The notes beneath the pieces were generated by a model that saw nothing but the letters and a program-made list of their open reading frames with translations, did no database searches and was not told the DNA's origin. A program made the position numbers and the translations under genes. Below, piece after piece: positions 5,365-45,820 of a DNA stretch of 49,437 nt (position 1 is its first letter; each line of letters begins with the position of its first letter). The stretch spans positions 1 through 49,437 of the forward strand of contig JAQXIP010000014.1 of NCBI GenBank assembly GCA_029007845.1, written 5' to 3'. This DNA comes from Clostridiales bacterium (lineage in GTDB: Bacteria; Bacillota; Clostridia; Lachnospirales; Lachnospiraceae).

Positions 5365-5582
5365 ATTATTATGATACAAGGGTCAAAAGGTCAGAACTCG
5401 TTCCTGCTTGCAGGATAAGAGTTCTGACTTGTTGACCTGCACACACATGAGGAAGCAGTGATTTTCCCTAGAAAATCAACGGATTCCGAATGTGTGTAGA
5501 ATTGCGGAAGTTGCGTAGCAACGGAGCAATTCGTGTATCAAATGAGGGGCAAAATACCTTTTGACCCTCATATCATTATTAT
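5365..5582. repeat. family-1 miniature inverted-repeat element, copy A, with target duplication
   Basis: The element occupies 5373-5574 (202 bases). Its ends match as an inverted repeat: GATACAAGGGTCAAAAGGT on the left against GATATGAGGGTCAAAAGGT on the reverse strand at the right. The 8-base sequence ATTATTAT lies immediately outside both ends (5365-5372 and 5575-5582), as a transposase target duplication would. Read on the minus strand the inside folds into successive hairpins: GAATTGC/GCAATTC around GTTGC/GCAAC; ACACACAT/ATGTGTGT around GATTTTC/GAAAATC; GTCAGAACTC/GAGTTCTGAC around TCCTGC/GCAGGA. It encodes no protein. It fills most of the gap between the response regulator and HD-GYP genes and could act as a terminator for the former. 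Confidence 0.85.
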
Positions 5583-20086: not shown

Positions 20087-20272
20087 ATGACCTTTTGACA
20101 CTCACTGATATACGAATTGCTCCGTTGCTCCGCAACTCACGCAATTCTACACACATTCACAATCCGTTGATTTTCCAAGGAAAATCACTACTTGCTCATG
20201 TGTGCGCGGGTCAATAAGTCAGAACTCTTTTCCTGCAAGCAGGAACGAGTTCTAACTTTTGACCCTTATATC
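20087..20272. repeat. family-1 miniature element, copy B (left end degenerate)
   Basis: Clear homology to copy A in the opposite orientation: shared ACGAATTGCTCCGTTGCT, AATCCGTTGATTTTC and CCTGCAAGCAGGAACGAGTTCT blocks. The right end, reading GATATAAGGGTCAAAAGT on the minus strand, is intact and ends at 20272. The outer arm of the left end is missing, so no target duplication could be assigned. The internal hairpins GAATTGC/GCAATTC, ACACAT/ATGTGT around GATTTTCC/GGAAAATC, and AGAACTC/GAGTTCT are kept. The right end overlaps and completes the HAD coding sequence. Confidence 0.85.
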
Positions 20273-20956
20273 ATATGATTTCTTCCCTGCGTGTAATATT
20301 TCGTGCAGTTCCGCTACCGTCTGTACGATATAACTGGCACCGTATTCTTTCAGTTCTCCCGGTTCCGCATAACCAAATTCTACTCCAAGACAGCAGATTC
20401 CCGCTTCCCTGGCTCCAAGAATGTCGTGTTTGCGGTCACCAATCATCAGAACTTTCTCTTCTGTTTCCTCCGGTCTGATCTTCAGTTCAGATAATGCCTC
20501 CCGGATTACAGCCGCCTTCGTGCTTAACACCTTATGATCCAGGCTGGCACCGCAGATTACCGTAAAATAACGGGACAGTCCAAAATGCTCCAGAATCCGG
20601 TTTGCAAACACATCCGGCTTGGAAGTTGCCACCCCAAGGATTTTCCCTTCAGCCTGCAGCTCTTCCAGCATTTCTTTCACACCCGGGTACACTTTGTTTT
20701 CATACAGGCCAACGGTTTTAAAACGCTCCCGGTATTTTGATACCGCCTGTAATGCCTGTTCTTCCTTCATCCCATAGAATTCCTGAAAGGAATCGATAAG
20801 AGGCGGTCCAATAAACCGTTTTAGTTTTGTCCGGTCCGGCTCCTTTATCCCAAAGGATTCCAACGCATACTGGACACATTTTGTGATTCCCTCTGCCGGG
20901 TCGGTCAGGGTTCCATCCAGATCAAATAAAAGATATGGGTAGTCCTGTGGTATCAT
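20252..20956 (-). CDS. HAD-superfamily phosphatase (phosphoglycolate phosphatase/PpaX-like)
   Basis: 234 residues. Motif I LFDLDGTLTD (about 9-18), motif II in VATSKP, and motif III/IV in KVLMIGDRKHDILGAREAG are all present, with an alpha-helical cap at about 20-90, which makes it HAD subfamily IA. It probably hydrolyses a small phosphorylated metabolite; the substrate cannot be fixed. The last codons and the TAG stop come from the terminal repeat of the mobile element copy B: residues DIRVKS are read through the GATATAAGGGTCAAAAG end. The catalytic part is intact. It follows the SurA-like gene by 17 bases. Confidence 0.88.
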   Translation of the reverse strand: MIPQDYPYLLFDLDGTLTDPAEGITKCVQYALESFGIKEPDRTKLKRFIGPPLIDSFQEFYGMKEEQALQAVSKYRERFKTVGLYENKVYPGVKEMLEELQAEGKILGVATSKPDVFANRILEHFGLSRYFTVICGASLDHKVLSTKAAVIREALSELKIRPEETEEKVLMIGDRKHDILGAREAGICCLGVEFGYAEPGELKEYGASYIVQTVAELHEILHAGKKSYDIRVKS

Positions 20957-37382: not shown

Positions 37383-37437
37383 AACAGTTCAGCGTGCTTT
37401 CGGCGGCTGTGCGCTCGTCACGGCTGAACTGTTACAA
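37383..37437. repeat. family-2 short inverted-repeat element
   Basis: 55 bases with GTAACAGTTCAGC at the left and GCTGAACTGTTAC at the right and the GCTGTGCGCTCGTCACGG core seen at 2719-2811. The ends are identical to those of the 165-base element at 18321-18485. No clear target duplication is visible, since the flanks are A runs. It lies between the PBP gene and the glgP terminator. Confidence 0.8.
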
Positions 37438-44189: not shown

Positions 44190-44386
44190 ATATTAAGATG
44201 TTGGGGTCAAAAGGTCTTTTGACCCCATGATGCCTACGAATTGCTACGCACTTCGTGATCTCGCAATTCTAAAACATTCGAAATCCGCCCTGTTCGGGCT
44301 AATTTCTTATGTTTTACGGGTCATAATGTCATGCTTTTTCATGCAAGCATGAAACGTATGGCCTTTTGACCCTGGCATCATATTAA
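44190..44386. repeat. family-1 miniature element, copy C, with target duplication
   Basis: The element spans 44197-44379 (183 bases) with GATGTTGGGGTCAAAAGG at the left and its partner CCTTTTGACCCTGGCATC at the right; ATATTAA lies directly outside both ends. The sequence differs widely from copies A and B, yet the same arms pair: AAAACAT/ATGTTTT replaces ACACACAT/ATGTGTGT, TTTCATGC/GCATGAAA replaces TCCTGC/GCAGGA, and GCCC/GGGC replaces GATTTTC/GAAAATC. It lies between malE and malF. Confidence 0.85.
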
Positions 44387-44407: not shown

Positions 44408-45820
44408 TTACTGACCATTTGCACTTGCGTACTCAGATGCCCAGTTCTCTTTTGTTGCAGTTACGACTGAATTCCAGTCAGCATTGCCATTTACATACTC
44501 AAGTAATGCAGAACCTACTGCTTTCTTGAAGTTCTCGCTTGGGAATGCTGTAAATGCCCAAGGTACACTTGTAACACCATCTTTGCTCATCCAGTTCATA
44601 ACTTCTTTTGCTAATGGATCTGCTGGTTTCTCATCATCTTCAAAGGTGTTGAATGGTGCGATGAATCCTAAGTCACCAGATACATATCCTTTACCGGTAT
44701 CGCTGGTGAACAGCCATGTGATAAAGTCGATAGATGCCTGCTGATCTTCAGCACTTGCATTTTTGTTAACTGCGAAGAAGTTCTCAGTACCAACACATAA
44801 ACCTCTGGAAGAATCATTTGCGCTGCCTGTGTAGATTGGAAGCATCTTGATCTGGTCTTCTTTTACAACGTTTCCATCAACGCCGCTGATCTGACCCCAG
44901 CCCCAGTTACCATTCTGAACCATTGCACACTGTCCAAGTGCGAACTCAGCCATGGACTGATCAACTGTTTTACCAGAAAGTAATGTACTCTTTGTGCAGG
45001 AGTTGTTGGTGTATAAGTCAAAGATGTTCTTATACTCGTCTGCATATTTGAACTCGATTTCTTTGCTTGCAAGACCTGCAAGAACAGGGCTTGAGTAATC
45101 TGTCTTCTCAGCGAATTCCTCTTCAAGAGGCAGGTTTAATCAGTGTGTCTGCCATCTCCAGTCTTCACCGGAAGCGAAGGATGTGCTGGCGAATACACCT
45201 TTGATTCCTAATGCATCTGCATTTGCCTGCATATCTTCAACAACTTCTTTCAGAGAAGCGAAGTCTTTGATGTCATCCATAGAAGCAGCTGCTGCTTTCT
45301 TGGAATCTAATGCAAAGTACTTGTCCATGATCTCATTGTTGTAGATGATACCATAACCTTCTACTGCGTATGGGATACCATAAACGCCGCCGTCATCTCC
45401 GGTTACTGCCAGAGACTGATCAGATAATTTGCTGTAAAGTTCTGTGTCTTTCAGATCTGCACAGTAATCTTTCCAGTTCTGGTATCCTACTGGTCCGTTA
45501 ATCTGGAACAGGGTAGGTGCATCTGATTTTGCAATCTCAGATTTCAGTGTTGACTCGTACTCACCACTTGCTGCGGTTTTAACTTTAACTTCTACACCGG
45601 TCTCTGCTTTGTAATCTGCTGCTACTTTCTCATAAACATCAGCGATTTCAGGTTTGAAGTTTAAGTAATAAACTTTTCCAGTCTTTCCTGAGGAGCTTCC
45701 TCCTGCAGAGCCGGAAGGACCAGCTGTTGAACCTGAATTAGAGCCACCGCATCCAGACAGCATACCAACGATCATTGCTGCTGAAAGTGCAAGAGCTGCT
45801 ACTTTTCTCATTTTTCTCAT
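44408..45820 (-). pseudogene. malE: maltodextrin-binding lipoprotein MalE, split by an in-frame TGA
   Basis: A single frame of 471 codons codes for a whole solute-binding protein but holds TGA at 45140-45142, codon 227. Before it, a lipoprotein signal (AALALSAAMIVGMLSGC, Cys 24) and a ligand-binding lobe end in GEDWRWQTH; after it the same frame continues LNLPLEEEFAEK and then TVDQSMAEFALGQCAMVQNGNW to a normal C-terminus. In relatives the site reads WRWQTHL-x-NLP, so the stop replaces a Leu codon (TTA to TGA is one change). No frameshift is needed. Either transport by this operon is impaired in this strain or the base is a sequence error. Other genes in the window end in TGA, so the code is standard. 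Confidence 0.85.

Follow-up and report, generated by a model that had tools for sequence, protein, structure and literature searches.

Three copies of Clostridiales-1 RNA in the window

The window, by which we mean the whole stretch of 49,437 nt analysed, contains three copies (A, B and C) of a repeated element; the one at 44197-44379 is, with near certainty, a known structured RNA, the Clostridiales-1 RNA (Rfam RF01699). In cmscan searches, all three copies were full-length matches to the model (positions 1-166; gathering score, 48 bits), and the RNA of copy C comprises a closing stem (P1), three hairpin arms, purine internal loops and a CUUG tetraloop (Table 1). The first-pass annotation had delimited the element of copy C exactly, at the span between its two 7-bp ATATTAA repeats. 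The short palindrome at the 3' end of this element is also found alone elsewhere in the genome, as 36-bp minimal copies (for instance, locus L042). In all, the genome contains 46 RF01699 matches in 2.28 Mb, and the true number might be higher because many matches are cut by contig ends.

Table 1. Position of the RNA copies, their terminal structures and adjoining features in the window
Feature	Position	Strand	Evidence or remarks
Copy A, Clostridiales-1 RNA	5372-5540	+	cmscan, 129.1 bits
Copy A, complete element	5373-5574	+	3' TIR at 5558-5574 (-)
Copy A, 8-bp target duplication ATTATTAT	5365-5372 and 5575-5582		scored as locus L006
Copy B, Clostridiales-1 RNA	20106-20273	-	cmscan, 125.3 bits
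HAD-hydrolase ORF, upstream of copy B	20252-20956	-	HAD domains
Copy C, Clostridiales-1 RNA	44228-44380	-	cmscan, 110.8 bits, model 1-166
Copy C, complete mobile element (short 3' hairpin and RNA body)	44197-44379	-	TIR matches, sequence
Copy C, TIR GATGTTGGGGTCAAAAG	44197-44213	+	TIR pattern match
Copy C, TIR GATGCCAGGGTCAAAAG	44363-44379	-	TIR pattern match
Copy C, left target-site duplication ATATTAA	44190-44196		exact direct repeat outside TIRs (locus L021)
Copy C, right target-site duplication ATATTAA	44380-44386		exact direct repeat outside TIRs (locus L021)
Short palindrome GGGGTCAAAAGGTCTTTTGACCCC, 3' end of the element in RNA orientation	44197-44227	-	sequence
Solute-binding-protein gene adjoining copy C	44408-45820	-	two ORFs, 44408-44953 and 45140-45820; SBP_bac_8 in each
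Second repeat, ~49 nt (TTCTGCGAGCTTCCGGCGGCTGTGCGCTCGTCACGGCTGAACTGTTACA), three copies	2715-2812, 37388-37436		

The RNA of copy A is antisense to the genes on both sides. The HAD-hydrolase ORF upstream of copy B enters the RNA by 19 nt and stops there, so that its final residues are encoded by the RNA element. The split of the solute-binding-protein gene next to copy C would be due either to a frameshift or stop codon, or to an assembly error. The second repeat of the window adjoins RF01699 copies elsewhere (L034, L041).

Clostridiales-1 RNA was described in 2010 by Weinberg et al., whose table gives it as "probably an RNA, probably not cis-regulatory" (PMC2864571), and its Rfam entry is of the type Gene; sRNA. 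The copies in the window match the whole model, on the same strand and with the same closing stem and arms as the published RNA; terminal repeats, target duplications, dispersal and placement at stop codons are not mentioned in the main text of that paper, its supplements aside. The RNA family itself was already known; for its mobility and its placement at stop codons, we found no report in the literature (the 2010 supplements aside), although the repeats may have been noticed earlier. Among genomes from the family of the window, sampled at one per genus, 160 of 299 contain a match; in a class-wide sample there were 16 in 391, 12 of them from the same family. The named matches are mostly from Lachnospiraceae.

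Terminal inverted repeats and target duplications

The first-pass annotation took the element for a non-autonomous transposon, and target duplications now provide direct evidence of this. Terminal inverted repeats (TIRs) GATGYYRGGGTCAAAAG occur at both ends and were found at 76 sites in the genome, against none for a reversed-pattern control. This class of copies, which includes the short 3' hairpin, extends from GATGYYRGGG to its inverse, with ends GATG...CATC (also written GATG...GGGTCAAAAG). Exact direct repeats of at least 6 bp, AT-rich and most often of 7 bp, followed by 8 bp, were found around 25 of 44 copies; permuting the flanks gave 1.1%. Likewise, target duplications of this length flank 28 of 37 copies (1.9% after permutation) in a second set, drawn from further genomes that are named for the most part, above all those of Muricomes intestini and its relatives. 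Derivatives are also found, in the form of internally deleted copies and of the 36-bp minimal palindromes. The class present in the window is thus very likely a dispersed, non-autonomous MITE-like element that has TIRs, duplicates its target and carries the Clostridiales-1 RNA as payload. Hence, a "small RNA gene" of Rfam that is present in about half of the sampled genera of Lachnospiraceae, which are common gut bacteria, travels on a transposon, and both the annotation of this gene and the counts of its copies need to be reconsidered.

Copies without the TIR arm showed no detectable target duplications, and direct repeats immediately at their closing stem (2 of 35) were little above shuffling; the duplications expected of a MITE are therefore a feature of the TIR-arm class only, and the other copies may move, or be trapped, differently. 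A transposase supplied in trans would move the element. Neither an autonomous relative with the same ends nor a transposase was found on scanning ten genomes for TIR pairs and 80 stretches from named genomes; where the two TIRs of a pair were over 500 bp apart, only host genes lay between them. For instance, convergent pairs at 0.8-3.6 kb contained GH28-like, DtxR-like, aldolase and chemotaxis genes, as judged by eye from their translations. We also rejected IS256 as a partner, or as the source of the MITE, since these ends are absent around the IS256-type transposase genes that we checked and two heavily loaded genomes lack any IS256-type transposase. An exact-pattern scan of the named genomes with the 3' half of this particular subfamily gave no match. 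The element was also set apart from REP/REPIN sequences, because it has target duplications and a size of ~180 bp, and from the HEARO/omega RNA of IscB-type elements, because no gene recurs beside the copies.

Several loci depart from the standard arrangement. In L185 (G217:C64, 301-2166), the halves of one element lie on either side of a polygalacturonase-like (GH28-like) gene; either the element was interrupted by an insertion or the whole may form a composite unit. Four loci of the same genome (L187, L188, L189 and L196) contain a 256-bp variant with a GGCGCCAGGCGCC-rich insert always in the same place of the body, apparently another repeat nested in the element. In L149, L145 and L226, a copy is followed directly downstream by a tandem array, either of the entire RNA or of the 3' hairpin. 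Finally, a subfamily from G029 (L072, L168 and L169) has AAAGCCC...GGGCTTT ends and shares an extra sequence, TATTCATGGCAGCGCCGGGCATGCCCGGC, 3' of the RNA, indicating that what moves in this subfamily extends beyond the RNA.

Conservation of the fold by compensatory changes

As the first-pass annotation described, the stem ACACACAT/ATGTGTGT changes between subfamilies to AAAACAT/ATGTTTT, TCCTGC/GCAGGA to TCATGC/GCATGA and GATTTTC/GAAAATC to GCCC/GGGC, with the GAATTGC/GCAATTC stem present and unchanged across copies. From this it had argued that the folded form is selected in separate arms, and had suggested a covariation test on a larger alignment. Two subfamilies alone are thin evidence and we thus carried out such a test on relatives, with results that bear out the argument. 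A covariance model from 11 close relatives collected 128 matches, the top 100 of which were reduced to 77 non-redundant sequences. The test was run with our own R-scape-like script, not R-scape itself, using a G-test with average product correction; null alignments were evolved along a FastTree tree, keeping the number of substitutions on each branch. In the 77-sequence alignment, 46 of the 59 base pairs covaried at E<0.05, and no off-structure pair did. Because this alignment was fitted to the fold, the test was run again with a MAFFT alignment made without regard to structure, in which 22 of 56 pairs, distributed in all four helical regions, were significant; the four off-structure pairs that were also significant were each one or two columns away from a helix pair. 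MAFFT alone misaligns the variable first hairpin, and the model-guided alignment was therefore used, with the structure-blind one as a control. The covariation score dropped from 0.528 to 0.07 or less when partners were slid by 1-3 columns, and a shuffling control agreed. Four stem pairs are unpaired in copy C, so compensation occurs between lineages and is not perfect in every copy. Together, these comparisons indicate that the RNA fold is very likely under selection, and conserved by compensatory change across dozens of genera of a bacterial family.

Changes at a single orthologous site point in the same direction: in six copies located after speE in genus g231, both partners have changed in 16 of the 59 pairs, while shuffled controls give 5.8 and slid ones at most 2. 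In one of these species (G230), the first hairpin was exchanged as a whole, possibly by gene conversion. Within genomes, variation is lower at paired than at unpaired positions (0.8% versus 5.7% for subfamily C, and 2.0 versus 5.1, 3.0 versus 5.6 and 1.4 versus 2.2 for three other subfamilies), a comparison weakened by the bias of the sample to good matches to the model. It is highly improbable, and was already disfavoured, that the element is an ordinary MITE whose subfamilies were founded with different palindromes and whose fold is not selected: its TIRs, target duplications and copy number would all suit this explanation, but it does not account for covariation against a tree-based null, for compensatory changes at the speE site or for the lower variation of paired positions.

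The first-pass annotation allowed for selection in RNA or in single-stranded DNA, and our data lean to RNA of one strand over DNA. Stems contain more G-U than A-C cells (126 to 47; 32 versus 8 by pair and 52 versus 10 by sequence), with p-values that are only indicative because cells are not independent; selection on double-stranded DNA would be expected to make both intermediates equally common. Additionally, the unpaired columns that are conserved correspond to the CUUG tetraloop and to purines of internal loops that face each other (GA/GA and GGGA/GGA), in which G and A are 92-100% conserved. Selection on the fold thus looks strand-specific and likely acts at the RNA level. We consider it unlikely that the arms change together at the DNA level, without an RNA function, either because template switches at replication forks make imperfect palindromes perfect or because a single-stranded or cruciform hairpin is the substrate of transposition. 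Such processes would agree with the simultaneous change of both arms in many pairs, with closing stems that in some cases run into host sequence as inverted repeats, with clean deletions of whole hairpins, typical of palindrome instability, and with the overlap of the outer stem and the terminal inverted repeat, the ends of which have to evolve together in any case. However, palindrome correction should erase, rather than conserve, the GA/AG internal loops, and provides no reason for the excess of G-U on one strand or for the sense placement at stop codons described below. A fold in single-stranded DNA of the same strand is compatible with the G-U excess and the loops, but the placement is hard to explain on those terms.

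Placement at stop codons and possible roles in host messages

Taking the longest same-strand ORF relative to the RNA start, a stop codon was found within -6 to +8 nt of that start in 41 of 159 copies from 48 genomes, against 5 for the mirror-image arrangement at the other end of the RNA; other distances were balanced. Length was the sole criterion for calling ORFs, so that individual cases may be in error, but the mirror control is equally affected. The second set gave 8 sense and 1 mirror cases. The excess lies in copies without the 3' TIR arm (42 sense versus 6 mirror). Copies with clear target duplications are seldom at stop codons (5:0), and their overall orientation is unbiased (14 sense, 18 mirror). 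Many older copies lie exactly at the end of a gene, from which it would follow that the folded RNA may act inside host messages.

It is quite unlikely that Clostridiales-1 is an independent small RNA gene acting in trans, with copies that are only incidentally spread by a transposon. The Rfam type and the 2010 judgement that it is probably not cis-regulatory (PMC2864571, as given in its table) agree with this possibility, as does the lack of a common neighbour gene: none recurs beside the copies, which also led us to reject a regulated neighbour as an explanation. On the other hand, no conserved promoter accompanies the RNA, since TATAAT-like hits near its 5' end are equalled by ATTATA-like hits (67:71, with one mismatch allowed) and derive from the AT-rich, near-palindromic target. 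A stand-alone gene is likewise difficult to reconcile with 46 matches in one genome, including decaying copies and deletions, with the lack of a match in nearly half of the sampled genera of the family and with the strong placement at stop codons.

As a whole, the explanation that we favour, and that we hold to be probable, is a transposon-borne RNA domain that folds between cistrons. Its steps concerning identity and mobility are well supported; a cis role in mRNA, with copies placed by retention at stop codons, is our best guess, drawn by analogy with REP and ERIC and limited chiefly by where the copies lie and on which strand. Within a transcription unit, RNA of the sense strand would fold as a compact domain closed by P1, with a four-way junction, sheared-GA internal loops and the CUUG tetraloop. 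The host might tolerate it, or use it as an intercistronic or 3'-end element that shields the end of the upstream message and separates neighbouring cistrons, much as REP and ERIC repeats. Persisting copies would be those in sense orientation that start at the stop codon, where the terminating ribosome would meet P1. In anaerobes, the placement offers a directly testable way into translation termination, operon expression and mRNA decay.

There are precedents for several of these properties. The first-pass annotation considered a selected fold unusual for simple non-autonomous transposons, which is too strong because bcr, CIR and ERIC/NEMIS are MITE-like repeats whose RNA folds are conserved or transcribed. 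The feature that seems unusual is instead the position of copies of another class at stop codons, which is invisible from the window. The bcr1-bcr3 repeats of the Bacillus cereus group are short, multi-copy, intergenic and MITE-like, are often transcribed within UTRs and operons, and their mobility is linked to a TTTAT motif (PMC3446304, PMC6542083). By published description, rather than by sequence, the RF01699 element resembles them in size, copy number and MITE-like nature, but it occurs in other bacteria and has 7-8 bp AT-rich duplications outside GATG...CATC ends instead of that motif. ERIC/IRU, Correia/NEMIS and CIR are non-autonomous elements of less than 200 bp with TIRs, target duplications and transcripts that fold, and ERIC affects upstream mRNA stability depending on orientation (reviewed in PMC2229807). 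They share with the RF01699 element the general features of a folded, non-autonomous element with TIRs and target duplications; however, they mostly have 5'-TA ends and a single long stem-loop (two arms in CIR), in contrast to the closed multi-arm junction and conserved internal loops of RF01699. The REP/BIME sequences of enterobacteria are structured repeats often situated within 15 nt of a stop codon, and were proposed to stall terminating ribosomes or to protect mRNA ends (PMC12306157 and work cited there). The likeness resides in structured repeats near stop codons, although REP/BIME are of 20-40 bp and palindromic, hence without orientation, whereas RF01699 copies are of ~160 nt, strongly oriented and, in the mobile class, flanked by target duplications.

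Orthologous sites in genus g231 illustrate the fate of resident copies. After speE, the full RNA is present in four of the species read and partially deleted in five (G712, G730, G741, G752 and G707); most other species have no RNA, and speE often overlaps the next start codon. G497 is empty at this site and its close relative G230 is full. At the purF-purB junction, two species have the complete RNA, G712 has a clear partial copy, and G752 and G746 have what are more likely scars; most species have short plain spacers. These deletion derivatives indicate that the RNA is dispensable at both sites, so that any benefit would be slight, or the host would simply tolerate it. Fresh insertions, resident copies and deletion remnants form a natural series in which to ask how a selfish sequence becomes a regulatory RNA.

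In resident copies at these sites, the 5' strand of P1 overlies the last codons and stop codon of the host gene, and the 3' strand of P1 matches. We tentatively consider it possible, if doubtful, that a mobile RNA settling at stop codons has its P1 built jointly by the host codons and the 3' strand of the element, with both sides covarying, and that it could act as a termination-coupled switch between cistrons, opening or closing with upstream translation termination. At speE, AGA pairs with TCT and, in one species, CGA with TCG; at purF, CGA pairs with TCG and CAA with TTG. This covariation is based on few events, and recombination between species, of which the empty and full speE sites of G497 and G230 would be an instance, could have moved blocks. 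More generally, P1 is extended into the flanks by at least 3 extra Watson-Crick pairs in 41% of the copies from genus g231 and G284, versus 3.5% by chance.
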